From Saccoglossus kowalevskii (taxonomy: Eukaryota; Hemichordata; Enteropneusta; Harrimaniidae): 36,356 bases of DNA. The translations under genes were made by a program, and so were the position numbers. Shown here one piece after another: positions 3,954 to 36,356 of this stretch (positions are counted from its first letter, which is position 1; every line of letters begins with the position of its first letter). The stretch lies in contig NW_003122908.1 of assembly GCF_000003605.2 (NCBI RefSeq), positions 479,505-515,860 on the forward strand, in the 5' to 3' direction. Under the pieces are notes generated by a model that ran no database searches, was not told the DNA's origin, and was given only the letters and a program-made list of their open reading frames with translations.

Positions 3954-6900
3954 GTAGGTGGTATTATTTATATGTTATATTGGCGTAATCGCGAAGTGGC
4001 GCACAGTTTCTAACTACTGTAAAATACTTAACAATTTTAGCTGGAATTGATTTTCACTGAAAGGACGTTTTGGATGTTTTGTATGGAATTTATTTTCACT
4101 GATTTTTGACAAGTTGAATTTAAAATATAGGAAAAAAGGTGTGTTCGCTGGATTTTATTTTCACTGAATCATTCCTTCAGCGAAAATTAATTTCAAGCGA
4201 AAATAAAGTATTCTACAGTACTTCGTATAGTATGACGCGCATTGATTTGGTTTTGAAGCGTGTACGCTTGACATCACGTCCGGCGTCTCGTCCAGCTTAA
4301 TATACTTCGAGATGTGTGTGGTCGGAACTGTAAGTATGCTCCCTTAATTACTGTACGTACGCAAATGTGCAATTAAAGTAATTGGCTTGGCACCCTAAAT
4401 CGCGCATATTCATTGTCTGAGGGAACATGATTCAATAAATATTTTTAGAGATTTATTTGATTTTAGTTTTCAGGTCACTGACCACAAGGTTTATTTTCAT
4501 TTAGAGTAATGTAAAATCCAGTGGGAGGAGCCTGGGTCAGGCATTTTAAAAGGACAAAAAAAAAAAAGTAATTAAACCATATTGACCAAAGTTTGGCTAT
4601 CCATTTAATATGGCCGCTTGTGGGTGCTTTTCTGTCAAGTCAGGCAGGCAGAAAATTCTATGATTAAAACTTACACTTCCTACAATAGCAGCCTTGGGCT
4701 CTGTCTAACTCTGTTCTCAACAAGCACAGTCTGGTCCATCAAATGTCCATTTCAAATGGCAGAAGTGTTTGCATTGATTGGCTCATCTGGTCGTTGTTTA
4801 CGACTGACTGACTGACTGCTGCTGTTCTTTTGGTATCTATGATCTATGTTGGTAAATCAAACATTTTCAAAGTGCAGAAAGCCATGTCACAAACTTAAAG
4901 GGCGATGGTCGTCGTGCTGAGCATGTGCAACGTTTGTGTTGATAAACATTGATTTTCTCACAGTCAAATGCGGTCTTCTAAATAGAAATCACCGCCAGTG
5001 ACTCCCTTGATACCATCCAATCATCTAAAAAAATACCTAATTAAAGCCTGGTAATTTCTCAGTTTGTACTTGTTTGATCTGTGCAACAGTCAAAGTCACC
5101 ATCTTTGTTTATATGAGACTCATTTATATCCCGCATTCATGGCGCGACGACTACAGCCCTTTACGTTTTATGTCTGTCTCTGTGTTGCAGCTGTATTCCC
5201 TTCCTCGTTTCAAAGACAGTTCGATAATGCAAGCAATTACTTAGATCAAGTTTTTCATTTTTTTCATTTAAACTATTGGCACTGGTACTTCATTATTGTT
5301 ACAAACATTGTAAAACTTTCAAATCAAAACAATTTTTTTTTTCATCACTATTATCAAAGGCGAACATATCTTTTGTTAGTGTGAACAAGGCTATTAATAT
5401 TCATGATGATATAACTATGAGTATCTTCAGGTTTGTTAGTGTTAACAGGGCTATTAAAGCAGCTTACCAAGGGAAATCTTTGTAATCACTTGTTTTCTGG
5501 CGGCAGTCGTCGTGCTGCGTCCAGTTCGATATGGGACTCATAGTGACGTATACAACGCATGTAAAATACATTGTTTATTTACATGAAATTCGAACGCGGC
5601 GACCATCGTGCTTTAAGTCATCATTCAGTATCACTATGTGTATAGCCATGAAAATGTATATATACTGTAAAATACTTTATTTTTGCTGGAATTAATTTTC
5701 ACTGAATAGACTTTTTGGGTGTTTTGTATGGAATTTATTTTCACTGATTTTTGACGAGTTGAATGTAAAATATAGGAAAAAAGGTATATTCGCTGGATTT
5801 TATTTTCACTGAATTATTCCTTCAGCGAAAATAGCGAAAATTCTGAAAGCTTAGATATAACATGGAGCATACAATAAGGAATCTTGTTGCTGAGGGTTGC
5901 CTTAGTGTTTATATTCATTGTATATCCAACTGTTTTCATATAACTCTAATCTAGGTACAAGATAAGTAACTAATAGGAATCTATTGAAGCGGGAAGGTCG
6001 TCACCTGCACACGCGCGGGAATTGAGTCCCAAGCAACGATAACAACACACAGTAAAAATGCAAAGGTTCATGGGTAGACGCTTGTTTGTAAACAATTACA
6101 CACTATGGCCATCTGGCGCATGCTCAGGTGACGACTTCCCCGCTTTAATTATTGAGACTCTTATGGAGGATATAAGAGATAGTCGACGATTCCAAGACTC
6201 CCTATATATTCGAGCATGCCTAACTGATCATGATTAGTTGTGATAGAACGCTACTGAAAAGTAAAAATTATGTAAATTTTCGTTATTTTTTCATATGCAA
6301 CATTTCATGTTACAAGGATGAAGAAAATGAAATATAAATATTGGCAGCATCTGATTCGCTTTTTGTCTATTTTAAGGCATGTTGCCATTGTTTCCTATGG
6401 CAAGGGTAATTTTTCATGATATCTACAAATTTTCGTTGGCAATTTCAAGTGAAGAAGTTTTATAATATATAGCGTTCTACTTGTTGATGTTTAGATGTAC
6501 TACAAAATTGACATTATTTTAGTGTCGAAATGTGTTTGCTTTGTAGTCTATGGAAACCATTAGTAAATTTTTATTTTATACATATTATTTGATGTTTTTT
6601 TTTTCAAAAAACACAGTGACAGTGTATAAAAAAATCATGTATTGTTCACTAACATTAAAACGTTTTATTATAGACAGATTTTGACACAAAATATTGTCAC
6701 TGCTGTACGGCTTAAATATGCACACATGTCTAAAAAGCATATGTTGTAGCATTTTACCTTAAAGAGATTTCCTGAGGTCGTTACCTTAATTATAAGAGAC
6801 AAACTGATATATAAATGTAGTTATTATGTGTCGTATGTACTGTCTGTGTAGCACTGGATAAAAGCTATTACTATCTAACAGGCATTTAATGACCCCCCAC

Positions 6901-9900: not shown

Positions 9901-12900
9901 TCGCCAAAATAAACTTCATATCACGCGATACATTAAATTGGTATTCGATGCAATATACACAATACACATATACGGTACCAGTAAAAGCTTCTTCGTAATT
10001 GGCTATAGTGTGTTACAAAATATCTGTATTAATAATGGAGTCGTCACTTTCCTGTTTATACGACGCTGCATAAATCAAGTCCATCGTCGGTACACAACAA
10101 AATGTAGAATATTATTTATTTTCTTTCAAACCGTGTTTCAAAGATAATTACTTTTTCTGAAAATTAAAGCATTACATTCAACATGAACAAGACGTTTTCA
10201 CATGTTTATTCTTACTGATTATATATGCATCTGAAATCACCACTGAGAGGGATAAACACTCTGATTTTAATTTGCTCTTATTTAATATGATTTCATTTTA
10301 TTGTCTGAGCATTTTTATGAAAAAAACGCACAAAAAAATATAAATAGGAGTAAAATCCAGGCGTCGTTAAATTTCACACAGGCATTAAATTCAAGAGGAT
10401 TATATCTACAGCATGTCAAGCACAGCATGGCAATCTGTTCAGACTCTGTACGCAGAAGGTTTGACTAATAATCCATTTAAAACCACAAGCCAATATTGTT
10501 CTCAAAAATGTCCTTACAGAGCCTAAGCCGGAGGTTGGTTCGCGTTAAGAAGCAGAAAAACATAAAAGAAGAATCTCTTCTAATTTGATAGGCAGTTGCT
10601 AATAAAATGTGATTACACTGTATTATCAAACTGGTTTTCCTTTTTTTTTGAAATTTCTTGCTCATCTCCAGATTAATACATTGTCGGAACAGCAGCAGCA
10701 GCAGCTTTTTTATTTTTTAAATTGAACAAATATTAACTGCCCATGGTATATATTCTAAATTAAAAAAAATATCAAAATAGTTATATAGCTGTTTTTATGA
10801 TTTATGTTGATTGAGACATTGATATGAAAAAAAAATATCATCCATCTCCAATCAATCTTTTTTTTTTAAAACTATGAACTCTTCGAAGCAATGTCAAATG
10901 TGCAAATTATTTGGCATTGTAATCAGCAGTTTTCACCCCCCCCCAAACACCAACATCTTAGAAATCAAGTAAATTGCCTTCTAGCTATGATATTGACCTT
11001 TAACATTAACTTGAATTCAATCTTGCATTGCTGTTTAATTTTCTTGATGATAATTGTACTGAAAAAATAATGAAAATTGAAATGAAATAAATAAAATTAA
11101 AAATCATGAACTAATATGAATTATTATTTTCATAGTACTAACAGGTTTTGAACATGTGTCAACATTGAATATGTTTATTCAGAATAATACCACATTGGTT
11201 CACTTGTCACTAGCAGCCATACCACGTTAGTGATGCCAGCTTGCGTATGCTTAATCCAGAGATAACATTTGAACACTGAACACAGGCACTGCGACGTCAC
11301 AGCAATCTCGCTATTCACTTATTTGACATTTTCATATTTTCCATAGAAATAATTTCATTTTAAGTGCATTGGTAACTATTTTCACTTTGTTAAAGCTATT
11401 GAGTGTAACGCTGTTTACCGGTTTTATGATGGGGGAGAGGATACCAGCTTGATTGCGGTAATGGAATAAAAGTACTCTGTCTCCACGGAATAATAGAGCT
11501 GGCTCAATTCGAGCTGCTACTGTCGGTTCAACGCATCAGTGGCCATGTTGTGAAATGAGACATCTGAATCGAGGCTATAAATAGATTTGTATAAAAAACA
11601 AAACAAAAGGCTAGGCCAAGTTTTTCCTTGGTCCCCTGTGATTACATTATGCCTTCTTTATATCACCATCATAGTGTGTTTCCTACATATAAGCTCTTGT
11701 TGACACTTTCATGCAATTCTCTTCATATCTTTGTAACTAGGGGTAACACATAGGGTTATGATGAATGTCAACGAAAAAATTGGCCTAGTGGAAATGATGG
11801 TTTTGTTCAAGCTCGGGTGCTTTAGGAAAAGTTCATTTGCACTGTAGTGTGGGTGGGCAACATTTTGGAGGTTTTCAGTTTGATTTCCTGTTTGTTCAGT
11901 ATTTTTTATGTTAATTTCTAATATGTTCATTTCTCGCTCTCCAACAGCTCTAGCAATTATCTGTGATGACTTCTTCGTGCCATCGTTGGAGGTTATCTCG
12001 GAAAAATTGGAACTTTCAGAGGATGTTGCCGGGGCAACGTTCATGGCAGCTGGATCTTCAGCTCCCGAATTGTTTACATCAGTCGCTGGTGTCGTCCAAG
12101 AGACGGATCTCGGTATCGGTACCATTGTAGGGTCAGCTGTTTTTAACATTTTGATCATAATTGCTTTGTCTGCTGCCCTCGCAGGTCAGGTAAGTCAAAT
12201 TCTGCTTTAGTTAATGAACCCCTTCCCATAAAAAAACAAACATTAATTTTATCTCTATTTCAAGCACATCTCTGATAGATGCACACATTAATAATAAATT
12301 GTGTTTATTATACGTTGAATCTTTATAATACATCAGATTTTGAATGGAATTTACATGAGCGCTACTAGGTAAGAGTCAACATGGTAACCTAATTTCTGGA
12401 ATAACAATAAAAATTAATTATTGTCTCACAGTATTATACCAATTCTCGGTTCTCAAAATAATAAAGACCCATACAAAGAAAGAATTTGTAACTGCATGCT
12501 AAAATTCATCAATGTTTTGTAGTTGCCATGACAATTTTGTCAATAAATAGATATAGCTATCTGTCAGAGTTTTGTCGCCGTGTACAGAGTAGATCTTGAG
12601 TCCGTCGTAAATTGAGATTTCTCTTTCTCTTGATTAAATAAATCTTACAGTATCTACTATGTTGACTAACTCTCTGTTATGAAAGACCTGCCTTTTGCTT
12701 TCACAAAAGGATGAGATGACGAACGGTTTTTAGTTGTTGTGAATGCGTGTTTGCGTGCATGTGGTAATTACTTGCATAAATAGACAGTTCCAGTAGTCTT
12801 GACTCCGTAGTGAAGATTAATTCTATTTTTTTTTTTTTGGTAAATGTGCAAAATAATAAAACTGCAACAAATGAATTGGATGAAATCCGTTTTATACGGT

Positions 12901-18900: not shown

Positions 18901-21900
18901 TGTTAATTTTTTTTATAATTATTTTTATTTATCAACATTTGTATATGGTAATCTAATAAAAAAAATCCCTATTAATAAATAATAAACCATGTCTGATCCA
19001 AATCAAATCAAATCAAATCAAAATCTGATGACTGGAACATTTATTTAGACCTCTTCTCTTTCTGATATGAGGAGGGGCAGTGCAATTGACTTGAGGAAGG
19101 GCAGTGCAATTGATGTTAGGAGGGGCAGTGCAATAGACGTCAAAAAGGGTAGTGTAATTGATGTCAAGAGGGGTAGTGCAATTGACGTTAGACGGAGTAG
19201 TAATACGGTAGATGTAGATATTTTAAATAAATCTAAACCCAATACCAATGGTACTGCAAATAAAAATAATGAACACAGCTCAGGTAGCACAGGTAAAGGA
19301 ACTCCATCCAAAACGCTAAATCCAAAAAATAAATTACCAAATAACGGGTCAGTAGTGCCTCCTATTTCAGTAAGAAATCAAGAGACAATAATTAGAGGTC
19401 CAGATGACAAATCACATTTAATAAGTAATAATAAAGGCACAAACAACATCACGGTTGAGGGAATAGACAATATAGGTCACACCCTTTCACCTGATTCCTC
19501 TGACCCATCCTATGACCCCTCTGACCCTAAGGCCAACAAGAGACCATCAATTGCCATCCAACCATCTGCCTTGGAACTGAATAATCTGGTGAAGGAGGCT
19601 GAATCCGCTACTGCACGAAATAACATTCCAGAAGAAGTTGAGGTGAGTAAGAAGCAAATGATTACCTCGTTTGAGGTCAGTGTTAAGTAATAATGACTCC
19701 CTTGCACAGTAGTTAGTGTTAACTTGTATTTTTAAAGGTTAAATGCTCTTTTAAGCTTTCAAGTAATTTATCATTCTCTCTGGCTCTCTTTGTCTTTGTC
19801 TTTGTTCCTTGTAATTTATTTGACAGTTGATTCGAGTTCAGCGTGTGTCTCAGTTTAATTGGTAATCAATTATTTTAAGCAAGTTTGTTTAAATAACAAT
19901 GAATAATATAGACGTTTGAATCGTTTAACAATTTGTAATGATTCTATTAAATACGAATAACTGCATGCTTCATTATTTTAAGCCAAGTACGTCTGATTTT
20001 TCAAGATTGCTGTGTTCCTGTATCCGGGTAGTTGCTGGAAAATACATTCAGAATTCATTCTTTGTTTGTTTGTTACACGAATACTCATCGCTCACTGACA
20101 GAAGTTGTATATACAAGTAGAGAATGTGGCTTTGTGAATTAATATCAGAATATGGCGTTTAAAGTTTGCAGGAACAATTAGGCAGCATTTTTGGGGGTTT
20201 ATTTAAATATGTTCACACTATGCGGTAGACATTTACTCCTCTGATAGTTTTCTTGGTACTCGCCAGCGTTTCTGGAACTGCATGGCAATTGTTTGGTAAT
20301 GTAGGCGTGCGCGTCATATTTTGATTTATCATTTACCATGCTGGAAAATAGTATAAAAACGAATGCGTTTATGGATGAGACTGGGACGGTAATGGGAGTG
20401 CGAAGCATGTGTATGATGTAGACTGGTAGGCGATGGAATGTAACGTGATGGATTTATACAGCGAACAGAGCAGGGAGTAATTTTCAATCTCATTTTGTCA
20501 CTTTGTATTTGGTAAATACCAGAAATTATAATAAAATTGTATTCTATGGTTTTATTTTTGTTAGTCTGTATATGCGCGTGTCAATTTTTGTCTGCACGGC
20601 ATTCAGTGTGCGTTTTTCTAACCAAGCATATTTCATGGATATGCTTAGGTGATTTAGTATTTCCAAATTGTTCTGACTATATGTATTTATGAAAGCCCAT
20701 TCTTGCTGTCATCTTAAAAGAAAACTTAACATATAGTGCCGAGTGTTGAACCAGTCCTCTCTATTTTGTGCTTTGGTATAGCGCCCTCATCACACATTAT
20801 CAGAGTACTTTTGTTTTTATTTAAATATTAATTCTTATGTTTTGTTAATGTTTACTGAAATATATATATATCTAAAAGTAAAATAAATAAATAAAATTGA
20901 TCTTTTATCGATATATATTTAAAATATATTTAAAATAATGAATGAAATTCTAAGATTAAATATAAATACCTCTGTTAGCATGTTTGTAAATACTGGTACT
21001 CATTGTTACTTCATTTCCTTGCTGCCCTCCTTTAGAAGGACTCTCAGGAAGCAACTGTACAAGCCGAAGAAGAGGAAGTGCAGCTTGTAGTTTGTCCATG
21101 CTTGCCTGCCCTCAATATGAATTATCCCGACAAGGAATTAGCACGTCAAAGCGGTTGCTGTGGATGGTTCAAATACTTCTTTAAGTGGATCCTCTTTATC
21201 GTCAGTTTCCCGTTCGTGTGTCTGTTTACCTGGACTATCCCCAACTGTGGCAAACCACATCTCAAGTAAGTGTCTTTGTCTTCGCTTAGGGCCTCCCATG
21301 TATATTGGTCAACTAATGCTGGGATGGGGGTGGTATGGTGTATGGAATGGTTGTTTTAGTTTTTTTGGGACGTTTCTAGTGGCCAAAATGTTTATGATTT
21401 AATGTTCCACGCCAAGAATGTTAATGTGCCTCATCTGACTGGGCCAATCTGTGGGACTTGATTACATTAACACTTCCTGTAAAAGTAAGGCTCAATTTAT
21501 TGCAAGATATTAGTACAAATTCCAGTGCTTTTTAAAATTACCGTATTTTGAGTATTAATATTACACAAAATAGCCAGTGTGAAACATAACTCTTTTGTGA
21601 AGGGCAGAAGGTAACATAAATTGACTAGCAACAGTAAAAGCCTACTCAATAAAATTGCACTCAAGGGCAATATAAGAATATTGACTTAAAAAAATCTGGT
21701 GGTCACCAGCCAAATCTTCTAGAAAATAATGGGTAATGGCCATTTTGGAAGTATTAGAATGCTTTTTACCATTGATTTCTATTACAGAGATATTATTATA
21801 TCTCAAATTGTAAGTTTCTCAAAATATGTCCCTGTAACGCACAATAGAATACTATTTCACGGTGAGACAATAGTTCCATGATTTTGTATAATCAACAAAC

Positions 21901-23804
21901 AAACAAACATGTGATTTATGAGCAACTTTTTAAAGCATTATGAGTTTGCTTTTACATCAAGTTTAATAACACAGGATAATTATAAGGTTCTTACATACAG
22001 TGTCCAACTGCACACCTGTGTTCTGATATACAATGCAAATGCAAGAGAAAATGATGACTATGTCTTGTAAAACTGTTAATATATCTTTTTTTTTTTTCAG
22101 GAAATGGTTTTTACTTTCATTTACTATTTCCGTGGTTTGGATTATGGTTCTCAGCTTCGTTATGGTGACTATTGTACAGAAAACTGGATGTTTACTCAAT
22201 ATTAATGCCTATGCGATGGGTCTTGTCATTGTAGCCATGGGAACTAGCATACCGGTGAGTTATAATTAATTTATATAATTATTATAATAAGCATGTGTGT
22301 ATCTATGTTTATAATCGAAATATGAAAAATGATTGATACACTTGCGAAACAGAATCAATTTTTTTTTCTCAAACATAACAGTGCAATGTTGTTATGTATT
22401 AAATAATATTTATTGGTTTTACAAATTCTAAAAAAAAATAAAACTTTGATTTATTGTTTTCAATGCAGACAATGTGTGTCAGCACGGAAGAGTTAAGCAT
22501 GACACAGTTGTCCAGTGTGTTTTTTTAAATAAATATTTTATCACAGTTGAAGTACATGCTAAAGTTGTCGCACTGTAATGTGTTTGACGAGGATTCTGTG
22601 AGACATTGCATGTACATACATTATTTCAAATACGTTATTAACACAAAACCTGAACATGTACTGCATGATAATACTGTGTAGTACTTACCTTATTTGGACC
22701 AAGTACTACCATATTAGGACATGAACTTACCTTATTTGGACCAAGTACTACTATATTAGGACATGCACTTACCTTATTTGGACCAAGTACTACCATATTA
22801 GGACATGAACTTACCTTATTTGAACCAAGTACTACCATATTAGGACATGAACTTACCTTATTTGGACCAAGTACTACCATATTAGGACATGAACTTACCT
22901 TATTTGGACCAAGTACTACTATATTAGGACATGCACTCACCTTAATTGAACCATGTACTACTATATTAGGACATGCACTTACCTTAATTGAACCATGTAC
23001 TACCATATTAGGTCTACTTCAACATATATATCTTTTTTTTCTCCCACAGGATGCACTTAGTTCTATTCTAGTTGCTCGTGACGGTTACGGTGATATGGCA
23101 GTGTCCAATGCAATTGGCTCAAACGTGTTTGATATCAACCTGGGACTCGGGCTTCCATTCGTCATTCGTATAGCCATCGATAAAGGAAAGTCTATTTACC
23201 TTTTCAAGAATGATGAAGGGGTAAGTAAACTAATCAACCTCCATGAGAAATGTATATATATAACAACATATGAAGCAATCAAACCATTTCAGAATGACGC
23301 TTTGTCTTCTCGAGACAGAGCTTGTAGATTTTGAGAATTTAACCTTATAATGAAAATTTATGTTTACTTCCCTCCTCCTCTGAGGTATACAAATGTTTAC
23401 CTCCCTCTTCCTCTGAGGAATACACCCGCCATAAATAAAAAAAAACACACCGACGTACAAAAAACATATCATGAAATTGGAAAAAAAGAAGTAGCATTTT
23501 AAAATATGATTATTTACCAAGTTTGTGCATGTGACAAAAAAAAAATATTTTTCCATTCATGTACCTGTTTCTTTTGTTTTTCTTGCAGTTAACCACTGCT
23601 TACGAAAATGGAGATATGCTGATGACTCCGCACTCGAAATTTGGTTTTATACTTCTGCTGATATTAGTGATCACCCAGATTACATTTATTGCTGTCCGAT
23701 TTCGATTGAACAAATACATTGGAATAGTGTTTGTGTCAATGTACGTCCTGTTCCTCGTCTACGCATTCATCCAAGAATTTCTCTGTGACGGTTACAAGTG
23801 CTAG
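3756..23804 (+). CDS. K+-dependent Na+/Ca2+ exchanger (NCKX, SLC24 family), ten exons, 5' end missing
   Basis: Exons: 3756-3953, 11948-12189, 13694-13890, 15865-16024, 16504-16593, 19049-19642, 21036-21265, 22101-22254, 23050-23220, 23589-23804. With one base from an upstream exon they sum to 751 codons including TAG, all junctions in phase. Family knowledge: these plasma-membrane antiporters exchange Na+ for Ca2+ plus K+. Seen (numbering from the first visible residue): a hydrophobic segment at 50-75; alpha-1 with [15 protein letters not shown] and its key Glu107; helices near 158-175 and 181-199; a hydrophilic loop at about 200-540; helices near 538-561 and 573-596; alpha-2 with GTSIPD (Asp623) and GSNVFD (Asp650, the position linked to K+ dependence in NCKX2); two last helices at 697-742. 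Alpha-1 looks closest to NCKX3/4, while alpha-2 is more divergent. No in-frame ATG precedes the first helix in the first visible exon, so a start/signal-peptide exon lies upstream. Family assignment is very secure; the loop exons are less so. Confidence 0.93.
4017..4218. mobile_element. MITE family 1, complete copy (202 bp, TA-flanked)
   Basis: Starts CTGTAAAATACTT and ends AAGTATTCTACAG, an imperfect terminal inverted repeat, with TA on both sides (4015-4016, 4219-4220). The inside is a series of inverted TTATTTTCACTG / CAGCGAAAAT motifs able to fold back. TA duplication is typical of Tc1/mariner-type elements (inference). It has no coding capacity. Confidence 0.85.
5372..5457. repeat. Direct repeat, period 60 bp, two copies of the core
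   Basis: TTTGTTAGTGTGAACAAGGC at 5372 recurs as TTTGTTAGTGTTAACAGGGC at 5432, both followed by TATTAA. Confidence 0.7.
5665..5850. mobile_element. MITE family 1, copy truncated at the right end
   Basis: Preceded by TA at 5663-5664; starts CTGTAAAATACTTTATTTT and follows the 4017 copy closely through TTCAGCGAAAATAGCGAAAA, then diverges before the terminal CTACAG. Same orientation as the first copy. Confidence 0.8.
5984..6148. mobile_element. MITE family 2 (TTAA type), copy 1
   Basis: The left end TTGAAGCGGGAAGGTCGTCA is inverted at the right as TGACGACTTCCCCGCTTTAA. The interior (ACGCGCGGGAATTGAGTCCC, then AACGATAACAACAC) is shared in reverse orientation with 32212-32334. The ends fit a TTAA target, as used by piggyBac-type elements (inference). 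Confidence 0.8.
7521..7779. repeat. Degenerate tandem repeat, ~36-bp unit, seven copies
   Basis: Units of 35-38 bp, typical start GCGACA-ACTGC(C/T)GATTA and typical end TTG(C/A)-TGAAG or GGAG. Highly diverged copies, so an old array. No open frame runs through it. Confidence 0.65.
11948..12189 (+). CDS. NCKX exon B: alpha-1 repeat
   Basis: The acceptor is CCAACAG at 11947 and the donor GTAAGT at 12190. It translates to visible residues 68-147: the [16 protein letters not shown] entry segment, then [20 protein letters not shown] (Glu107, cation-coordinating in the family) and [19 protein letters not shown] rather than GSAPE and the LSEDV lead-in favour the NCKX3/4 side of the family over NCKX1/2. 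It ends in phase 0 with AGQ. This is the best conserved exon and the anchor of the gene call. Confidence 0.96.
12190..13693 (+). other. NCKX intron between exons B and C
   Basis: AT-rich, with poly-T and a short TTAA run (12915-12930). No exon, transposon or RNA gene recognised. Confidence 0.6.
13694..13890 (+). CDS. NCKX exon C: helices after alpha-1, start of the cytoplasmic loop
   Basis: The acceptor is TTTCTCCCCCAG at 13693 and the donor GTGAGT at 13891. The frame continues in phase 0 as [16 protein letters not shown], the conserved W-PL-RD linker of NCKX proteins, then two hydrophobic helices and the conserved [16 protein letters not shown] and MKFN motifs. The exon ends on two bases (TG); the split codon becomes TGT (Cys213) on joining the next exon. 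Together they make a cysteine cluster (C211, C213, C215, C216) just past the helix. Confidence 0.94.
14044..14130. mobile_element. MITE family 1, left-end fragment joined to another element
   Basis: CTGTAAAATACTTTATTTTC followed by TTTTCACTATTTTCGCTGATTC and AGTGAAAATAAAATCCAGCG, a fold-back of the family. It stops at ATACTTTTTA, where the hairpin-headed element begins. The right end is missing. Confidence 0.75.
14130..14619. repeat. Hairpin-headed element with 157-bp tandem repeats, cut by an assembly gap
   Basis: Begins with a near-palindrome (AGCTCCG at 14130, CGGAGCT ending 14160, inner TCGAC-TTT-GTCGA). After GTCCGTCGTCGTCC come three copies of a 157-bp unit marked by GACTTCTTGTTAAAAACC-type sequence at about 14212, 14369 and 14526. 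The third runs into the N stretch. Hairpin-plus-CGTCGTC heads of this kind are, to my knowledge, dispersed in marine invertebrate genomes. Confidence 0.8.
14620..14691. other. Assembly gap (72 N)
   Basis: A run of N directly inside the 157-bp tandem array; the true array may be longer or shorter than drawn. Confidence 0.99.
14754..14921. mobile_element. MITE family 1, copy missing its right end
   Basis: Preceded by TA (14752-14753); CTGTAAAATCCTTTATTTTC, internal GTGAAAATAAAATCCAGC, then TAGTGAAAATAAACTC and ACAAAACAGCTAAAAGTC. Ends in a T/A-rich run instead of the terminal repeat. Confidence 0.75.
15195..15377. mobile_element. MITE family 1, complete copy in reverse orientation
   Basis: CTGTAGACTACTTTATTTTC at the left, AATAAAGTATTTCACAG at the right, with TA on both sides (15193-15194, 15378-15379). 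The interior matches the reverse complement of the 4017 copy (TGAAAATAAATTCCATACAA). Confidence 0.85.
15865..16024 (+). CDS. NCKX exon D: proximal cytoplasmic loop
   Basis: The acceptor is a T-rich tract ending ACAG at 15864 and the donor GTAGGG at 16025. It enters in phase 2 and leaves in phase 0, as needed by both neighbours. It encodes [19 protein letters not shown] and an acidic, Asp/Glu/Asn-rich stretch ending LPPLKK. The sequence is typical of the poorly conserved regulatory loop between the two halves of the exchanger. The call rests on phase, splice sites and continuity with the cysteine cluster. Confidence 0.85.
16504..16593 (+). CDS. NCKX exon E: 90-bp loop cassette exon
   Basis: A 30-codon open segment (starts [16 protein letters not shown], ends HGELSGKI) bounded by ACATAG at 16503 and GTAAGT at 16594. 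Both ends are phase 0, matching the exons on either side, so it can be included or skipped without changing the frame. It is basic, Ser/Thr- and His-rich. It is too short to be listed as an open reading frame and was found by following the splice phase. Moderately sure: the signals are good, but loop sequence offers no conservation check. Confidence 0.7.
16594..19048 (+). other. NCKX intron between exons E and F
   Basis: AT-rich. Open frames at 17211-17438, 18167-18570 and 18571-18762 are unrecognised and lack matching splice signals. The 3' end (about 18940-19023) is an A-rich stretch closing with AATCA repeats. Nothing else supported. Confidence 0.55.
18999..19023. repeat. (AATCA)n microsatellite, possible retroposon tail
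   Basis: Four to five AATCA units following ATAATAAACCATGTCTGATC. A short pentamer tail after A-rich sequence resembles the 3' end of a non-LTR retrotransposon, but no reverse transcriptase frame is present. It lies only 25 bp before the exon F acceptor. Confidence 0.6.
19049..19642 (+). CDS. NCKX exon F: large loop exon with RRGS octapeptide array
   Basis: The acceptor is ATTTAG at 19048 (weak pyrimidine tract) and the donor GTGAGT at 19643; phase 0 at both ends. It encodes 198 residues (297-494): TSSLSD, six tandem octapeptides (302-349, e.g. DVRRGSAI), then a low-complexity Asn/Ser/Lys/Pro stretch with DPSYDPSDP and [10 protein letters not shown], ending EEVE. RRGS and KRPS fit the Arg-Arg-X-Ser type consensus of PKA-like kinases (inference). 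The acceptor at 19048 is the only nearby one that keeps the incoming phase open, although a better pyrimidine tract lies just inside the exon. An unseen additional small exon upstream cannot be excluded. Confidence 0.82.
19064..19207 (+). repeat. In-frame 24-bp repeat encoding octapeptides in the NCKX loop
   Basis: Six contiguous 24-bp units (GATGTTAGGAGGGGCAGTGC type) encode D-(M/L/V)-(R/K)-(R/K)-G-S-(A/V)-I; the last unit reads DVRRSSNT. Synonymous third-base changes between units show they are not brand new. Confidence 0.93.
19643..21035 (+). other. NCKX intron between exons F and G
   Basis: AT-rich, with no recognised exon or mobile element. Confidence 0.6.
21036..21265 (+). CDS. NCKX exon G: distal loop and first helix of the second half
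   Basis: The acceptor is CCCTCCTTTAG at 21035 and the donor GTAAGT at 21266. Phase 0 in, two bases out. It encodes an acidic end of the loop (QAEEEEVQ), a CPC motif, [13 protein letters not shown] and a hydrophobic helix, then WTIPNCGKP, which matches the conserved (F/Y)TVPNC-KP motif that opens the second membrane domain of NCKX proteins. The split codon AA-G (Lys571) is completed by the next exon. Confidence 0.94.
21266..22100 (+). other. NCKX intron between exons G and H
   Basis: Ends in a T-rich acceptor tract. No repeat family or coding segment recognised inside. Confidence 0.6.
22101..22254 (+). CDS. NCKX exon H: helix before alpha-2 and start of alpha-2
   Basis: The acceptor is a long T tract ending TTTCAG at 22100 and the donor GTGAGT at 22255. 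It encodes [19 protein letters not shown], a helix matching the family pattern, then [16 protein letters not shown], the front half of alpha-2. The exon stops exactly before the key Asp. The usual AAGTSVP reads AMGTSIP here, a mild divergence. Phase 0 at the 3' end. Confidence 0.95.
22255..22682 (+). other. Front part of the NCKX intron between exons H and I, before the minisatellite
   Basis: Nothing recognised; AT-rich with short poly-T/A runs. Confidence 0.6.
22683..23011. repeat. 42-bp minisatellite, ~7.8 copies, in the intron before exon I
   Basis: Unit starts ACTTACCTTATTTGGACC, continues AAGTACTACCATATTAGG and ends ACATGA or ACATGC. Eight units differ by a few substitutions; the last two share TTAATTGAACCATG. 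Because 42 is a multiple of three, the minus strand is open throughout (14-residue repeat [14 protein letters not shown]), which I take as a by-product. Confidence 0.95.
23050..23220 (+). CDS. NCKX exon I: core of alpha-2
   Basis: The acceptor is TTTCTCCCACAG at 23049 and the donor GTAAGT at 23221; 57 codons, phase 0 to 0. It begins with the cation-binding Asp623 ([20 protein letters not shown]) and contains [18 protein letters not shown] with Asp650. An Asp at this place is the family marker of K+ co-transport; K+-independent NCX proteins lack it. It sits 38 bp after a 42-bp minisatellite. Confidence 0.96.
23360..23424. repeat. Two-copy 33-bp tandem duplication in the last NCKX intron
   Basis: ATGTTTACTTCCCTCCTCCT at 23360 is repeated as ATGTTTACCTCCCTCTTCCT at 23393, each followed by CTGAGG(T/A)ATACA. 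Confidence 0.8.
23589..23804 (+). CDS. NCKX exon J: C-terminal helices and stop
   Basis: The acceptor is TTTTTCTTGCAG at 23588; the frame closes with TAG at 23802-23804. It encodes a short linker ([17 protein letters not shown]), two hydrophobic helices separated by FRLNKYIG, and a short tail ending LCDGYKC. The last-helix plus EF arrangement (AFIQEFLC) matches the end of NCKX proteins. AATAAA follows 43 bases after the stop. Confidence 0.94.
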   Translation, partial: LTTAYENGDMLMTPHSKFGFILLLILVITQITFIAVRFRLNKYIGIVFVSMYVLFLVYAFIQEFLCDGYKC

Positions 23805-28417: not shown

Positions 28418-31269
28418 GCAAATTTCCAAAACTATATTTTGTTCATTGACTGATAGGCTACTTGTCAAAGTAATACAAACGCTTTTCACGTCACGCGGTG
28501 GCGCTAATCAAAGGGAAGGTTCAGGATAACAAGCAACGTCCACAAAATACTAGTAATGTACAATCACCGTATACATTCATTTTACAACCAATAAACAGCA
28601 ACATTGATAATGTGGTTGATCATCCAACGTTGTCACGTGTTCTTTTATTTAAATATATACGTAGGGTGTTATACCTTTCCTTTTGCCTAATTTCGCGTGG
28701 TTGAAGTTCGCGGCGAGCAAAATGTTGCAAGTCACCAGAATTGTGCTCTCCAAATCAGATAAGAAATCGTTAACATAAATGATGCGTAAAATGATGTTTT
28801 GAAACAGATTAACGGTTGATCATTATTCGCAAATAGAGATCAAGTCTTTTCACATATTCATTTTATTTCCACATTCTTCGTTTCAATATAATAGTGGTAT
28901 ATTTATTCTAATGCCACTTTTTTTAAAAAAAAATTAAAAACTCACTGATTTTTGAATATAAATATTAAATATAGTAGCCGAATGTTTTACCTACTCTATG
29001 TATCGAGTGTGGGCCCTTATCTGTTCCAGTTTGAAAAAACAAGAATTCCTTATCTGATTTAGTTAAATCAGCAAAATCCTGCTCACAACTTATCACAACT
29101 TATCAAATCTGCATACGTAATACATGTAGTACCAAATTAATTTGTGACGACAACGTTAAATTTGAAAAAAAAAACAACTTTGAGATTTTATTCACAAATC
29201 AAGTTAACACATTCAAGAAAAACGAAATGTAGCGTATTTGGAAATTATCCTTAAAATAAAGTGTAAAATATAGCATCTAATCAATTCTTCGCGTTCATTT
29301 TATAAAATATAAGCATTTTTTTATTGAAATATATTCAGCTATGCTTCAAACGATATTTACACTTCTGATGCAATATTGCCCCGGAACATGAATAATACAA
29401 ACAACATTAAGTATTATTATGTTTCACTAACTACTTACCAACTATATATATATTAAAAAAAGCTATTTATCAAGTAATCTTATGGATGGGTGGCAGTACT
29501 ACAACAAATATTACAATGTAACGATGTCATATCGAACGCGTTGTAATGTAATCTTATGGATGGATGACAGTACTACAAAACGTATTACAATGTAACGATA
29601 TCATATCGAACGCGTTGTAACGTAATCTTATGGATGGATGACAGTATTAATAAAATATTACAATGTAACGATGTCATATTGAACGCGATGTAACGTAATT
29701 TATGGATGGATGGCAATACTATAAAAAGTATTACAATGTAACAATGTCATATCGAACGCGCTGTAACGAATATTATGGTTGGGTGGCAGTACTACAAAAA
29801 GTATTACAATGTAACGATGTCATGTCGAACGCGCTGTAACGTAATCTAAAGGATGGCCTGTACTACATAAAATATTCAATGTAACGGTATCATGCCATAA
29901 ATCACAATGAGTAACATGCAATATTCTTCATAAATGTTTGAAAAAAAATATTCAAAATTATTGCTTTTTTAGTGAACGAAAAATTCAGTAAATTCATTTT
30001 CGTCTGACATTTTCTTTTCATTGAGATAGCTTGCTAACCTGTTTGCCTCAGAATTTTCTGAACCTTCTGTTACGGGGAATAATGAGGATTCTCACTCGAC
30101 TGAAATTATTTTTATGAGCTTTTGAGCTGTCCTATAAAATAATGTAATAAAGTTTCGCTTAAAGGTCATCGCTATAACGTTCTTTATGAGAGACCTGTGG
30201 CTATTGCGTGACATATTTTATGGCACTTGTGAATAGGCGGGAAATTAAGGAAATAGTTGAGGTTTCGGCCTGTTCCGAATTACTTCGGATCACAAAGTCG
30301 AATCTTCGTGAAGGCATGTGCTTCGCAAAGCATTAGCAAATGAAATTCGAACAAATAATAACGACACGCTAAAAACCGGTGGCGCTCATGTGAACTATCA
30401 AATATTTCACACAATAGTCTTAATATTCTAATAAAGATTTATGGATGACTCAAGCTGTAATTTTAAAAACGACAAGGAAAATTGGAATATCGTATTCCCA
30501 ATATAACAGTAAGAGAGAGTCAAGAAACGGCATGAAAACAACGATTCAGTCTACACGTAGATCCGATTTGTTGGTCCCTTAAGTTTAAAAAAAACAAAAC
30601 AAAAACATAGACAAAATAGACTCTTGGAGTAGCATGAGTAAATAACAGAGATATACGTACTTGGTCAACATGAATCGTCCCCTAAAATAAATCTCGACTC
30701 TAGCCACGAGGCAATCACGTGACGTTGAAAATGACGTAGATAGGAGGCGCAGTTCCATGTTTGGTTGTGTAATTAATTGGTTGACAATCGTGATCAAAAT
30801 AATACGAATGCTATCCATTGCGTCTTTTATACTTATTGCGTCACAGAATCGCTTCGACGTAAGAGGGCGCGACTTACAGAAAGGTGTATAGGGATGCCTA
30901 AATTATGCATAAAATTAGTCAAACGTGAAAGTAAATAAGAACAATAACAATAAAAATAGAAACAATATTGATAATAATGTACGCATTATTAATAATCGAC
31001 GAATGACGACGGACAATGACATTAAAGCTTTCTATGTCATATATACATATGCTGGGATGAAGATCTCCAGTGTATGACAGGGTATATTGATATTTTTTAG
31101 GATTTAGGTAAAAACGTTAACTTAACACGTCTTTCCGGTAGAATCATCAACTTGTTCAAATAGCATGAACTTCGGCACCTCGTCTCAATTTTTTAGTAAA
31201 CTATCCAGAAGCAACCTAAAACGTTCTGATATATAATCACTTCGAGACGCGGATTGATATACTGTGAGG
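28418..31269. other. Intergenic DNA and 3' flank of the fibrinogen-related gene
   Basis: No exon recognised on either strand. Holds the 74-bp tandem array. I could not identify a convincing polyadenylation signal for the minus-strand gene close below 31270. Confidence 0.5.
29476..29896. repeat. 74-bp tandem array, about 5.7 copies
   Basis: Units begin AATCTTATGGATGG(A/G)TG-CAG and contain TATTACAATGTAACGATGTC and GAACGCG(T/C)TGTAACGT. The first copies are about 74 bp; later ones carry small deletions and the last is truncated at ATCATGCC. Confidence 0.93.
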
Positions 31270-31491
31270 TTACCCAGTAAACGGCCTTATCATCATTTTG
31301 AATGAGTTGAGACTGTACATATACGACTCGTGCCAGGCACCCCAGGTTATAATGCTTCCGGATCTGAAACTACCGTCGGAGTGTGGAAGCCAGATGCCAT
31401 TAGGATTTGAACGATTGCATTTCCTAAACCAGAAACCAGCCTTCCGTAAACGTGCACAGTTGACCGCAAGTATTACGTCATTATCACGATC
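31270..31491 (-). CDS. FReD gene last exon: Ca2+ loop, second cysteine pair, stop
   Basis: The acceptor is a 15-T tract plus CAG (coding strand) before 31491; stop TAA is the complement of 31270-31272. It encodes DRDNDV (acidic Ca2+-binding loop in the family), NCARL and FRKCNRSNPNGIW (cysteine pair), then WGAWHESYMYSLNSFKMMIRP, the classic C-terminal end of fibrinogen domains. The usual GAWWY becomes AGFWF here, a conservative change. Confidence 0.95.
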   Translation of the reverse strand, partial: DRDNDVILAVNCARLRKAGFWFRKCNRSNPNGIWLPHSDGSFRSGSIITWGAWHESYMYSLNSFKMMIRPFTG

Positions 31492-34400
31492 CTGAAAAAA
31501 AAAAAAAAAAAAATTGCAAAATGAGCACATGATGCGTTGATGGTAGTGAACAGTGCATTTTTTTCCTGCATGAATTTTATTCCCTCTGTGCCTTGCTTGT
31601 ACCATTTCAAATGCTCAACCACAAACTGATATTTCGTACTAAACGTAGCAATATGTACGCTAAACGTCATCGTTTTGTGTGTGCTCTAGAAGATCACGCG
31701 AAAAAAACAACAACAATTAGTGCGACGGTACCATGTTTATGAGAATTATCAAAACTGGGATATCCGCGGTGTCCTAACGTCTCTAATAAGTAACAGACGC
31801 AGTTATAATTTGTTGCACAGCTCGATACTTACCACCGTTGAAAACATCATGCCGCTATGGTATGACAGTGAGTCGCCCCTGTTTCCTTCAGTAAAGCTGC
31901 CCAGACTAAGCCGAAAACCATCAGCCTCACTGCCTACGTAGAACGCATTATAAATAGCATACCCGTCAACATTCTCCCAGTCAGTCATTTCTATAGAGAA
32001 TAATGGTAATAACGATTAAGATTCTCATAATGATGACGATGGTGACACTGATACATATCTGGCAATAAAAACAAAACAAAACATGTATAGACTTACTCAT
32101 TATTTGAAAAACGTGCGTCATAGTTATGTCACATTCAAACATTTTGCTTTGTTCACATTAGACGCAGCAACAATAACGCACAACGTTATTTGGTAAAGGT
32201 ATTTTGGGCTGTTAAATCGGGAGAGTCGTCAGCTGCGCATGCGTAAGATGGTCTTTGCGTTTTTAGCGTGTGTTGTTATCGTCGATTGGGACTCAATTCC
32301 CGCGCGTGCGCAGGTGACGACCCTCCCGCTTTAACTAAATTATCGCTAAATGCTGGAAAACACATACCGGTATCAGCAGAAACAAATGTCTTCAAGTAAT
32401 TTATTGTATTGCTTCTATACGCAAAGCAGAATTATCATAACATGTGAGAGATTACTTACCAATTCGCAGCTCATACCGGCCAAGAGACGTGATTTGATGT
32501 AAAAACTTATTGCCAATCCAAAATTCACCACCAGGGTCCCCAAAGCCGGCTGCATACTCCTCCCAGTTTCGTTCGAAGCTAACACTGCCATCCTGTAACA
32601 AATCGCAAATATACAATATAGTTGTTACTTTCATTGTAAAAAAGCATTCAATCGTGACCGATGACATTCAACATCACCAGTGCATAACTGACGCTGGCTT
32701 GTTGTCACTACCAAGTGCAACACGATATAGTAATATCTTTGACTGCTGTATTTCATTATTGTAATTTCCATAAGGTCTAATAGTGAGTGTCCGTAGACTA
32801 TGGTTCATTATTATCCAGGAAGATTTGATATATTTAATTTTATAATTTCAAGAATGAAGTGATACTCACAATTCGTCTTTGTATAACTGTCCACGGTATG
32901 CCATCAGTGGTGAAATCACAATAAATTTCTTTATATCCCTCATCCGTTCCTAAACCATTTATAGCATAAACTCCATTATATAAATAACCAATTTTCGCGA
33001 GTTCTGTACAAGGATCTGTTTGTGTTTCTTTATGCCTACGAAACTGTTTTGTAACAACTGTCACTGGAACAGAAGGTGTAAATATTTTGGCTGAAGGAGG
33101 AATTGATGTAGGTAGAACTGCGCTAGTGATAGGACCTCCTTCGATGTCAGTTGGGGCTGTAGTTATAACAAATGGTGGTGTATCAGGCCTATCATCTACT
33201 GTTGCCCTCTTCTTCATATTCGAGACGTCATCATGACCCGGACCAGATTTGTCATAACCTGGCGATTCGTAGCTCCTGTTCATAGTAGAGATGTTTCCAT
33301 GACCAGATGATTCATTGCTTCTCATCATAGTGGCGACATCCTCATGACCAGAATGAGTAATTAATTCCTGTTTTATTTTCATCTCTGTTCTTGTCTGCAA
33401 TCGTATTTGATCTGTCGTTGGTTGCCCATTATCAGGAGAAGCCCACACGTCAATTAGTTGTACATCAGGTGTAGTACCTGGAACTCTTATCTTTGATGGT
33501 ATTGTACTTTGTAACAACACGTCCTGTCCCAAGGTTGGTTTTCCATTGTCAGGAGTAGCTTTCTCATCACCAATTATTTCACTAGATGGAGGACTAGGTG
33601 ATCCTATGTCTGGTGGTAGTGCTTTTTGAGATGATAAGCCATGGTCAATTGTTGGTCTTCTATTAACAGGAGAAGCTGTCACATCCATTATTTCAGTAGA
33701 TGGAGGACTTGGAGCTCCCACGTTTGGTGATAATGTCCTTTGAGATGATAGACCATGAACTATTGTTGGTCTTCCATATTCAGAAGAAGAATTTTCATCA
33801 ACTATTTCACCAGAATGAGGACTTCGAGCTCCTATGTCTGGTGATAATGTCATTTGAGATGATACACCATGAGCTATTGTTGGTCTTCCATATTCAGAAG
33901 AAGAATTGTCATCAACTATTTCACCAGAATGAGGACTTCGAGCTCCTATGTTTGGTGATAATGTCCTTTGAGATGATACACCATGAACTATTGTTGGTCT
34001 TCCATATTCAGAAGAAGATTTTTCATCAACTATTTCACCAGAATGAGGACTTCGATCTCCTATGTCTGGTGATAATGTCCTTTGCAATGATAGATTATGA
34101 ATCATTGTCGGTCTTCTATAATCAGGAGGAGATCTTGGAGCTCCCACATCTGGCGGTAAAGTATTTTGACCCATTGTTGGTTTTAAGTTAACAGGAGAAA
34201 CTGTTACATCAATTATTTCACCTGATTGAGGACTTGGAGCTCCTATGTCTGGTGATAGTGCCATTCGAGATGATAGACCATGAACCATTGTTGGTCTTCT
34301 ATAATCAGAAGAATATTTTTGATCAACTGTTTCACCTGACGGAGGACTTGGTACTTCCATGTCTGTTGGTACTCTCTTTTGAGGTGATAGATCCTGATTG

Positions 34401-36356
34401 AAGGTTGATTTCCTATTATCAGAAGAAGATTTGCCATCAATTAGTTCACCGGATGGGGGACTTGGAGCTCCCACGTTTGGTGGTACTGTATTTTGATGGA
34501 ATTGACCCTTATCCATTGTTGGTCTTCTGTTAACAGGAGAAACTGTCATATCAATGATTTCACCTGATGGAGGACTTGAAGCTCCTATGTCTGGTGATAG
34601 TGCCATTTGAGATGATAAACCATGAACCATTGTGGGTCTTTCATAATCAGGAAAAGCTGTCTCATCAATTATTTCATCAGATGGATGACTTGGAACGGTC
34701 ATGTATAGTGGTACTCTCTTATGAGATGATGGATCCTGATCGAAGGTTGATTCCCTATTATCAGAAGAAGATTTGCCATCAATTAGTTCACCGGATGGGG
34801 GACTTGGAGCTCCCACATTTGGTGGTACTGTATTTTGATGGAATTGACCCTTATCCATTGTTGGTCTTCTGTTAACAGGAGAAACTGTCATATCAATGAT
34901 TTCACCTGATGGAGGACTTGGAGCTCCTATGTCTGGTGATAGTGCCATTTGAGATGATAGACCATGATCTATTGTCGAACTTCTATAATCAGGAGAAGAT
35001 TTTCGATGAACTATTTCACCTGATGGAGGACTTGGTTCTTCCATGTCTGGTCGTACTATATTTTGAGATGATAGATTCTGATCTAAGATTGTTTTTTCAT
35101 TAACAGCTGAAGTATCCCCATCAATTAGTTCACCAGATGGAGAAGATATTCCATAACTTATTTCACCCGATGGAGGACTTGAAGCTCTTATGTCTGGTTG
35201 TATTGTACTTTGAAATGAGAGGTCCTGCCCTAAGGTTGGTTTTTCAATATCAGGAATAGTTTTCTCGTCACCAATAAGTCCACCAGCTGGAGGACTGGGT
35301 GCTCCCATGTTTGATGATAATATCCTTTGAGACGTTAGATCATTAACCATAGTTGGTCTTCCATAATCAGGAAAAGATTTTCCATCAAATAATTCACCTG
35401 ATGGAGGACTTTGAGATTTCATGTTTGGTGACAATGTTTGTTGAGATGATAGACTATGAACCAATGTTGGTCTTTCATAATCAGGAGAATCCTTCTCATC
35501 AAATATATCACCAGATGGAAAACTTTGAGCTTTCATGTCTGGGGATAATGTTCTTTGAGATGATAGACTATCAACCATTTTTGGTTTTCCATAATCAGAA
35601 GAAGATTTGTCATAAATTATTTCAACTGATGGATGACTTGAAGCTCTTATGTCCGGTGGTACTGTACTTTGAAATGACAGCTCCTGATCTATGTCCTGGT
35701 TTCTATTATCAGGAGTGGCTTTCTCATCCCTAAATGGAGGGCTTGGAGATACCATGTTTCGTGGTCTAGTCTTTTGAGATGATAAACCCTGATCCATGGT
35801 TGATTTTTCATTTTCAAGTAAAGATTTCTCATCAGTTATTTCACTAGATGGAGGACTTCGAGCTCTCATGTCTGGTGATAATGTCTCTTGATGGAATGTA
35901 CCCAGATCCAAAGTTATTTTTTCATTATCCTGAATGGTGTTCACATCAATTATTGCACCAGATGGATGCATTGGTGCTTCCATGTCTGTTGGTAGTGTTA
36001 TGTGAGAAGATAGACCATGATCAATTGTGGCTCTTCTGTTAACAGAAGATGTCACATCAAATATTTCACCAGAGGGATGACTTGGAACATCCATGTACGG
36101 TGGTATTGTTCCTTGAAAAGACAAACCATGATCCATTGTTGTTCTTCCATGATCAGCAGACGACTTTTCATCAATAATTTCAATAGATTGATAACTAGGA
36201 GCTCCTATTTTTGGTGGTAGTGCCTTTCGAGATGACAGTCTCTTATCCATTGTTGGTTTTCTATTAACATGAGAAGCTGTCGCAACAATTATTTCACTAG
36301 ATGGACGACTTGGAGCTTCATTATCTGGTGGTATTGTCCATTGATATGATAGGCTC
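31270..36356 (-). CDS. Fibrinogen-related protein with giant N-terminal repeat region, four 3' exons, 5' end beyond window
   Basis: Exons in coding order: 36356-32870 (open at the edge), 32592-32460, 31990-31833, 31491-31270. The phases are 0, 1 and 0 with good donors and acceptors, giving about 1332 visible residues. The last ~217 residues are a full fibrinogen C-terminal domain: PCTELAKIGYLYNGVYAI, YCDFTTDG, WTVIQRR, DGSVSFERNWEEYAAGFGD, GEFWIGN, RYELRI, DGFRLSLG, DALSY-like DSLSYHSGM, DRDND (the Ca2+ loop in the family) and four cysteines in the usual two pairs. Upstream are a Pro/Thr linker, three short SG-rich repeats and at least 25 copies of a 38-residue repeat without cysteine. Such domains act as secreted lectin-like or adhesive modules in ficolins and invertebrate FREPs (family knowledge). 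A role in recognition or as an extended extracellular protein is inference. Start codon and signal peptide are not in the window. Confidence 0.92.
31492..31832 (-). other. Third visible intron of the fibrinogen-related gene
   Basis: 341 bp, GTAAGT donor; the acceptor is a 15-T run then CAG. Nothing else recognised. Confidence 0.85.
31833..31990 (-). CDS. FReD gene exon: fibrinogen domain part 3
   Basis: The acceptor (coding strand TTCTCTATAG) precedes 31990; donor GTAAGT on the complement at 31827-31832. 158 bp, entering after one base (split codon G-AA, Glu) and leaving in phase 0. It encodes MTDWENVDGYAIYNAFYVG, EADGFRLSLGSF and DSLSYHSGMMFSTV, the central strand-rich part of the domain that leads to the Ca2+ loop. 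Confidence 0.95.
31991..32459 (-). other. Second visible intron of the fibrinogen-related gene
   Basis: 469 bp, GTAAGT donor and CTATAG acceptor. Contains the second TTAA-type MITE. Confidence 0.85.
32212..32334. mobile_element. MITE family 2 (TTAA type), copy 2, in an intron of the fibrinogen gene
   Basis: TTAA at both edges (32212-32215, 32331-32334); the end CAGGTGACGACCCTCCCGC mirrors GCGGGAAGGTCGTCACCTG of the copy at 5984. GTTGTTATCGTCGATTGGGA and CTCAATTCCCGCGCGTGCGC are the reverse complement of that copy's interior. 123 bp, so 40 bp shorter. Confidence 0.85.
32460..32592 (-). CDS. FReD gene exon: fibrinogen domain part 2
   Basis: The acceptor (coding strand TTTGTTACAG) precedes 32592; the donor GTAAGT is the complement of 32454-32459. 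133 bp, phase 0 in and phase 1 out. It encodes DGSVSFERNWEEYAAGFGD, GGEFWIGNKFLHQIT and GRYELRI, which joins QRRI of the previous exon exactly as in other fibrinogen domains (QRR-DGSV-F-R-W-Y-GFG). Confidence 0.95.
32593..32869 (-). other. First visible intron of the fibrinogen-related gene
   Basis: 277 bp with GTGAGT donor and TTACAG acceptor on the minus strand; nothing else recognised. Confidence 0.8.
32870..36356 (-). CDS. FReD gene giant exon: 38-residue repeats, linker, start of the fibrinogen domain
   Basis: A single frame runs from the right edge to the donor GTGAGT (reverse complement at 32864-32869), 1162 codons plus one base. The first ATG (36250-36248) lies inside a repeat unit, and the frame upstream reads as a further repeat (SSEIIVATASHVNRKPT), so it is not the start. 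Order: repeats to 33416; a short-repeat segment at about 33355-33209; a Pro/Thr/Val linker (TTAPTDIEGG to PVTVVTKQFRR); the fibrinogen domain from Cys at 33010-33008 to QRRI. Without the spliced exons the frame would read only a few intronic codons past QRRI before a stop. Confidence 0.93.
33209..33355 (-). repeat. Short coding repeat next to the fibrinogen domain (three degenerate copies of ~16 residues)
   Basis: Between the 38-residue array and the linker the protein reads HSGHEDVATMMRSNES, SGHGNISTMNRSYES and SGPGHDDVSNMKKR: three related units with the pattern SGH-(D/N)(V/I)-(S/A)TM-RS-ES. The family is distinct from the large repeat. Confidence 0.7.
33416..36356 (-). repeat. Coding minisatellite: 38-residue (114-bp) repeats, at least 25 copies
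   Basis: Units read on the minus strand start with (M/I/L)-(D/V)-H-G-L-S-S-Q, continue through TLSPDIGAPSPPSGEIID and end NRRPT or YGRPT. From 36250 down I count 25 units: 18 of exactly 38 residues, the others 35-39, plus a 49-residue unit with an internal duplication and a 23-residue truncated unit (34174-34106). A further partial copy occupies 36251-36356. All indels preserve the frame and no unit has a cysteine or stop, so the array is under protein-coding constraint. Ser, Pro, Asp and Glu dominate, so an extended, disordered, possibly O-glycosylated stalk is inferred. Confidence 0.93.

Follow-up and report, generated by a model that had tools for sequence, protein, structure and literature searches.

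A minus-strand gene of Saccoglossus kowalevskii that appears to encode a fibrinogen-type head on a giant, possibly proteoglycan-like stalk

Fibrinogen-related exons and the repeat array

The window, a stretch of 36,356 nucleotides from the hemichordate Saccoglossus kowalevskii (C1550:479505-515860), carries on its minus strand the 3' part of a gene for a fibrinogen-related protein. In the direction of translation, an array of tandem units of about 38 residues (33410-36355, consensus HGLSSQKTLSPDMGAPSPPSGEIIDEKSSPDYGRPTMD) is followed by a non-repeated linker (33014-33409, as read from the frame) and by a fibrinogen head (FReD). The first 48 residues of the head (PCTELAK...IQRRI, 32870-33013) form the 3' end of a giant exon, with the donor GTGAGT from 32869. 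The initial annotation had placed a complete domain in this exon, whereas the rest of it was located in three further minus-strand exons at 32460-32592 (DGSVSF...YELRI, donor GTAAGT), 31833-31990 (EMTDWENV...MMFSTV, donor GTAAGT) and 31270-31491 (DRDNDV...MMIRPFTG and the stop codon), the last of which holds the motif DRDND and the replaced acetyl-pocket positions discussed below. When the four pieces were put together across the predicted joins, Pfam PF00147 (Fibrinogen_C) was matched with E = 5.1e-58 over positions 5-220 of 221, i.e., as a complete fibrinogen C-terminal domain, and the protein was classed as a FReD protein on this basis.

The array lies in a minus-strand frame listed at 32840-36355 (1171 aa), which runs for 1162 codons to the splice donor at 32870. 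The chance of a stop-free frame of 1162 codons is about 5e-34 at the given base composition, and the remaining two minus frames of the array region contain 136 and 64 stops. Units were defined by a score of at least 25 when the 38-residue consensus was scored along the frame. By this threshold 24 units were obtained, 22 of which outscored the best value (44) from any of 200 shuffles; the other two scored 25 and 37, below the shuffle best, the latter being the weak final unit of the array (33523-33410). Two incomplete units, at 36355-36245 and about 34168-34100, were left unscored, and the earlier count of at least 25 units is fair if these are included. The units are spaced by exactly 38 residues in 17 of 23 cases (35, 37, 39, 40, 49 and 61 in the rest), and the array was detected by Tandem Repeats Finder at periods 114 and 342. 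In an alignment of 18 units, S20 is the sole invariant column, and S17 and T36 are found at 90% or more. The stalk had been described as cysteine-free, and indeed the 1,114 residues that precede the FReD contain no cysteine. At the window edge the array abuts a run of Ns.

Translation of the array had been argued from common third-base variation. This argument did not hold: among 18 of the 24 units (the six others, of a length other than 38 or weak, were excluded from the codon, pN/pS and stop tests), differences at codon positions 1, 2 and 3 numbered 1628, 1609 and 1477, with no enrichment at the third base, and pN/pS was 1.32. The protein sequence of the array is either weakly constrained or diversifying, and no constraint is evident beyond retention of the frame. 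For the 358 substitutions from the unit consensus in these units, about 16.7 stops would be expected and none is present (P about 5e-8 by a simple Poisson calculation, which treats the copies as independent although they are not fully so). Since stops are absent among diverged units, the array was taken to be translated, on better evidence than the third-base argument. Of the original description of repeat array and FReD, the stop-free frame and the tandem units were thus retained, while the undivided FReD was corrected.

The genome was searched as 572 Mb in 4,830 contigs with intron-bearing animal genes. With the repeat as query, all nine matches among the best-scoring candidates fell within the array locus (among them an antisense one with 7 stops), and no second locus of the array unit was found among these candidates. 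A plasmid search with the same query gave no match.

Upstream stalk and predicted 5' exons

The window stops just where a run of 5,533 Ns starts; this run is presumably an assembly gap. Past this run the same minus frame is open for 2,607 codons up to a predicted acceptor, and the other two minus frames of this upstream stalk contain 179 and 283 stops. With the N run taken at its face-value size, the giant exon measures 16,844 nt and leaves the window, the array being its 3' part. The visible part of the exon amounts to 3,769 codons without a stop and has a Ser+Thr content of 26.6%. The upstream stalk has 28.7% Ser+Thr, a single cysteine at residue 12 and no Trp, and a furin-like RQKR occurs some 110 residues from the start of the giant exon. 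Only two unrelated Pfam matches were obtained for the stalk, both below the cut-off.

The upstream stalk is enriched in Ser-Gly pairs, of which there are 41, against a mean of 14.3 and a maximum of 24 in 500 shuffles. Acidic residues close by, our own rule for an acidic context, were found at 31 of the 41 (shuffles: mean 4.0, maximum 12), and Ser-Gly-Asp occurs 28 times against 1.1 expected. Typical forms are DLEYSGDD and NDDDFSGDGSGD, with [DE][YF]SGD in 15 cases, and the residue before the Ser is most commonly Tyr (12), then Gly (6). The stringent Caenorhabditis elegans motif E/D-G/A-S-G is present in 4 of the 41 pairs. On the window side of the exon there are 19 Ser-Gly pairs, with one acidic site by the same rule. 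With a Ser-Gly-Asp stalk query, all three matches among the best-scoring candidates in the genome lay inside the giant-exon frame. Self-BLAST of the stalk returned the identity match only, and several duplicated segments are seen in a dot-plot. Eight pairs of such segments were hand-picked from the dot-plot (a ninth on the list was left out, and two adjoin within a longer repeat); pN was lower than pS in six and equal to it at two decimals in two, and the pooled pN/pS was 0.61.

For the 5' end, 14 candidate frames were listed upstream, each opening with ATG and a hydrophobic stretch and containing a possible donor. One candidate, at 64488 in the coordinates of the extended window, begins with a putative signal peptide (MATDVNLIFIIRTVCVLSMYVAVNG), after which comes DEDCIPLSSLCK. 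The donor GTAAGG flagged by the scan in this frame is of phase 1 and incompatible with the next exon; a weaker donor five bases on, GTTAGT in phase 0, was picked by eye because it is compatible. The next predicted exon (52852-52762, NYTTFEPSAELEIIHQHIHDIENMMSIVMS) is preceded by a phase-0 acceptor, TTTCTTTACAG, and has its phase-1 end at GTAAGT; the TG at the start of the giant exon completes the codon. Across this predicted join the heptad positions read L I I I M V M L, all eight being I, L, M or V. Shuffling all 49 residues reproduced this score once in 20,000 trials, and shuffling the giant-exon side alone reproduced it 338 times in 20,000. Cysteines stand on either side of the predicted coiled coil. 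The first intron includes a run of 1,009 Ns, and further exons may exist, for example in this run.

If the N run is counted at face value, the product would come to about 5,870 residues, some 4,020 of them visible. The gene seems to specify a secreted protein that exceeds 4,000 residues and has a fibrinogen-type head on a huge stalk; from its composition only, the stalk is judged to be probably unstructured. The extended stalk presenting a fibrinogen head, as suggested by the initial annotation, continues beyond the window, and the 5' exons and signal peptide expected further upstream now have predicted candidates.

A proteoglycan-like reading and its rivals

It has been reported that xylosyltransferases xylosylate Ser-Gly in unstructured regions of core proteins (passages of PMC10570366), typically near clustered acidic residues, and that Ser-Gly motifs alone are no proof of chains (passages of PMC8418075). 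In the putatively unstructured upstream stalk, 31 of the 41 pairs have acidic neighbours, as in proteoglycan cores. Because acidic residues after Ser-Gly favour heparan sulphate (PMC10570366, in part), chondroitin and/or heparan sulphate are both possible on the stalk. The chondroitin sequon described in excerpts of a 2026 preprint, with an acidic cluster, DFSG and a critical Trp nearby (PMC13405426), resembles the stalk form NDDDFSGDGSGD, but its critical Trp is missing in the stalk. Genes of the chondroitin-synthase type are represented in the genome by five PF05679 matches on three contigs (best 6e-153); the xylosyltransferase profile PF12529 had no match in the genome, nor in any control, which makes this negative uninformative. 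Judged from its sequence, the upstream stalk seems to bear a signature typical of glycosaminoglycan attachment and to be proteoglycan-core-like.

The tenascin-like order of assembly coil, long arm and head, together with the Ser-Gly sites, led us to read the product as a giant proteoglycan-like FReD protein. We consider it probable, by a modest degree, that one minus-strand gene encodes such a protein in secreted and oligomeric form, as part of a matrix or mucus gel. The signal peptide would direct its secretion as an extracellular-matrix or mucus-gel protein, and the short Cys-flanked coiled coil would join several chains, the analogy of fibrinogen, tenascin and angiopoietin making three the probable number. 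The stalk, over 2,600 residues long, would be xylosylated at about 31 acidic Ser-Gly sites, on which chondroitin and/or heparan sulphate chains would be built; the unread stretch would follow, then an extended spacer made of the 38-residue units, 24 or more in number, and finally one FReD head. Such a protein may act like a tenascin with polysaccharide-carrying bottle-brush arms swollen by the charged chains, and its heads would bind a protein (or glycan) partner and thus cross-link or anchor a hydrated matrix or mucus. More tentatively, and with somewhat more doubt than confidence, we propose a new matrix class: an oligomeric proteoglycan of giant size whose glycosaminoglycan sites, dozens of them, lie in a single exon and which is capped by fibrinogen-type heads. 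If this is true, an invertebrate deuterostome combines roles that vertebrates split between the hyalectans, which serve as charged filler, and the tenascins, which provide FReD/FN3 arms.

FReD proteins are usually distinguished by the region before the head (collagen, coiled coil, immunoglobulin, EGF/FN3), and a proteoglycan-type stalk of several thousand residues, if true, would add a further class. Vertebrate angiopoietin-type linkers are far shorter than thousands of residues. Aggrecan and versican have a giant Ser-Gly-rich attachment region between terminal domains, encoded largely by one big exon. These hyalectans have a C-terminal lectin, in the place of which the giant protein has a FReD, and Link and C-type lectin domains had no Pfam match in its visible sequence. 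A tenascin consists of a signal peptide, an N-terminal Cys/heptad assembly region, a long arm and a single C-terminal FReD (PMC11401434, in part). The predicted giant protein would have the same order as these chordate proteins, its coil lying on predicted exons, but its arm is rich in Ser/Thr and Ser-Gly instead of being built from EGF-like and FN3 domains; none of these domains was found by Pfam in the visible 2,073 + 535 + 1,171 residues, at most about 1,845 more being hidden in the N run. In cyprinids, one tenascin-X has glutamine-rich repeats of about 70 residues and is labelled mucin in some species (passages of PMC11401434).

Angiopoietin and ANGPTL proteins consist of a coiled coil, a linker and a FReD, and hemichordate, sea-urchin and sea-squirt transcripts have been called orthologous to the human members, from which they diverge strongly and which they generally far exceed in length (PMC5237311). 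The giant protein would share this order, its coil being predicted, but its linker would be thousands of residues long. The C-terminal FReD is common to molluscan FREPs (PMC8878817, in part), whose N-terminal immunoglobulin domain had no Pfam match in the visible giant-protein sequence. Rotifers have FReDs preceded by a low-complexity, occasionally Thr-rich region, as in the giant protein, but neither Ser-Gly-Asp sites nor a tandem array are mentioned in the passages on them (PMC8878817). Fibrinogen did not turn up in a term search of a paper on the sea-star footprint (PMC9382459). The combination of a fibrinogen head with a proteoglycan-type stalk was not met in searches of the open-licence PubMed Central literature, and within the same searches the initial statement that no described family is known to have this repeat stands unrefuted. 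If the proteoglycan-like reading is true, glycosaminoglycan carriers and fibrinogen-type connectors, two matrix systems, are united in one chain, and the hemichordate host makes this relevant to deuterostome matrix building beside chordate tenascins and hyalectans.

Other explanations were weighed, some of them compatible with one another in part. The strongest, which we still regard as unlikely, is a secreted mucin with a fibrinogen head, whose stalk would be O-GalNAc glycosylated and whose Ser-Gly-Asp sites would be without glycosaminoglycan. The Ser+Thr content of 26.6% over the 3,769 visible exon residues is consistent with a mucin, as are 13 genome matches to the Branch glycosyltransferase family, which we take to include mucin-branching enzymes. 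In another FReD gene the FReD exons are preceded by a classical Pro/Thr/Ser array (see below), but the shared transcript of that array and FReD is only putative. The excess of acidic Ser-Gly sites, 31 against at most 12 in 500 shuffles, would be unexpected for a plain mucin and argues for the proteoglycan-like reading. The term mucin-like used by the initial annotation is half appropriate: the larger upstream part of the stalk looks proteoglycan-core-like, whereas only 1 of 19 Ser-Gly pairs on the window side is acidic.

The architecture on each side of the N run is well supported, while the unity of the gene across it is predicted. A scaffolding error could have joined two genes, one for a Ser-Gly-rich proteoglycan-like protein and the other for a shorter FReD protein with the 38-residue repeat stalk. 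The 5,533-N run itself would allow this, and composition and repeats differ between its two sides. BLASTP between the sides gave nothing at E 1e-4; with E up to 1 and the composition correction off, four weak alignments of 18-33% identity were obtained (best E 2.8e-4), which may be read as shared composition. Nevertheless, we consider two genes improbable, because both frames lie on the same strand and are open into the N run, one has no 3' end and the other no 5' end, and both are long, Ser/Thr-rich and (nearly) cysteine-free. The frames also agree across the N run, but this is worth only 1 in 3 by chance and was rejected as proof of unity.

A ficolin- or FREP-type immune lectin, soluble and with a spacer of unusual length, appears no more probable than two joined genes. 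FIBCD1, ficolins and MFAP4, which bind acetylated or related ligands, share with the giant protein the FReD and DRDND, which in exon 4 retains the calcium-loop pattern. The best sequence matches among solved structures were angiopoietin-2 (top score), MFAP4 and ficolins, and there are 39 FReD matches in the genome in all, the exons of the giant gene included; both facts would suit such a lectin. In FIBCD1 the acetyl group is bound via the backbone of Cys414/His415 and by Tyr431, with Tyr405 flanking it (passages of PMC10825690), and docking placed the sulphate of chondroitin-4-sulphate among Tyr405, His415 and Tyr431 (passages of PMC9449597). The equivalent residues in the S. kowalevskii FReD are Arg, Asn and Phe, the His415 and Tyr431 columns being read from the MFAP4 alignment and the Tyr405 position by counting back 9 residues from the Cys. 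The S1 pocket residues of acetyl-binding FReD lectins (ficolin, TL5A, FIBCD1) are thus replaced, which speaks against a lectin, and immunoglobulin and collagen domains were not found in the visible sequence. However, since His415 acts via its backbone, the pocket is possibly not wholly lost, and ficolin-2, which is altered at S1, binds its ligands through other sites (PMC10825690, in part). On these residues, a protein-binding, angiopoietin-like head seems more likely than an acetyl lectin. With all three pocket side chains replaced, the acetyl-lectin head was rejected as the default reading, and the lectin-type head of the initial annotation finds no support in the pocket.

A non-working gene, i.e., a decaying or assembly-generated array beside a FReD, is very improbable, for although pN/pS is 1.32 among the units and an N run lies at the window edge, there are 0 stops in 3,769 visible codons and the FReD, whose donors resemble the consensus, covers 216 of the 221 profile positions.

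Other FReD genes and neighbouring features

The top-scoring FReD paralogue in the genome has 45% identity over residues 1-161 of the 170-residue query, and a FReD gene on contig C3461 has 50% identity over a shorter stretch, residues 1-85. Upstream of the FReD exons of the latter (L021, C3461:643000-647445), a minus frame at 2961-4445 is open for 495 residues and is cut by the contig end. It consists largely of Pro/Thr/Ser repeats (TYEATTNPPSTSSESTTNIPIT units) with 44% Ser+Thr, and its FReD introns lie, by eye, at other positions of the domain than those of the giant gene. The Pfam profiles UPF0731 and SEF14 adhesin passed the cut-off in this array; both are unrelated and were taken as chance matches of low complexity. 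This is the only Pro/Thr/Ser array in 13 stretches around 10 other FReD places, several of which are N-rich. Since the array lies upstream of a FReD, more than one S. kowalevskii gene may have a Ser/Thr-rich array before its FReD. About 6 kb upstream of another FReD gene (L016, C2107:787000-796999), putatively coding minus frames from 1356 and 791 contain a repeat of about 10 residues of the STNILGMNTD type.

On the plus strand of the window, the neighbour of the giant gene is a sodium/calcium-exchanger gene with PF01699 matches at 11884-12207 (2e-21) and 22672-23331 (2e-9). Between the two matches, a 24-nt tandem repeat on the plus strand (19063-19201) is read as an 8-residue repeat, RRGSAIDV, in an open frame of 213 aa and possibly belongs to the cytoplasmic loop of the exchanger. 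A 42-nt tandem repeat at 22683-23012 (7.9 copies, 95%), just before an exchanger exon and open in both directions, is probably intronic. Downstream of the FReD gene there is a 73-nt tandem repeat of 5.8 copies (29474-29893). An interspersed element with a 36-base core is present in two copies, at 5996-6031 (plus) and at 32287-32322 (minus), the latter in an intron of the FReD gene; no such pair was seen in 100 shuffles.

The mitochondrial contig of the assembly (C4830, 17,037 bp) was also inspected. In its COX1, 10 ATA codons stand at isoleucine sites where this could be judged (e.g., MPIM-ATA-GGFGNW), 7 TGA codons are read through and AAA occurs once; among bilaterians, ATA is read as Ile in echinoderms, hemichordates or flatworms. 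The genes for tRNA-Phe, 12S, 16S and tRNA-Leu are consecutive on one strand, an order that is vertebrate- and hemichordate-like. Both features point to an ambulacrarian, most probably a hemichordate. COX1 lies on the strand opposite to both rRNAs, which departs from the usual hemichordate mitochondrial order.
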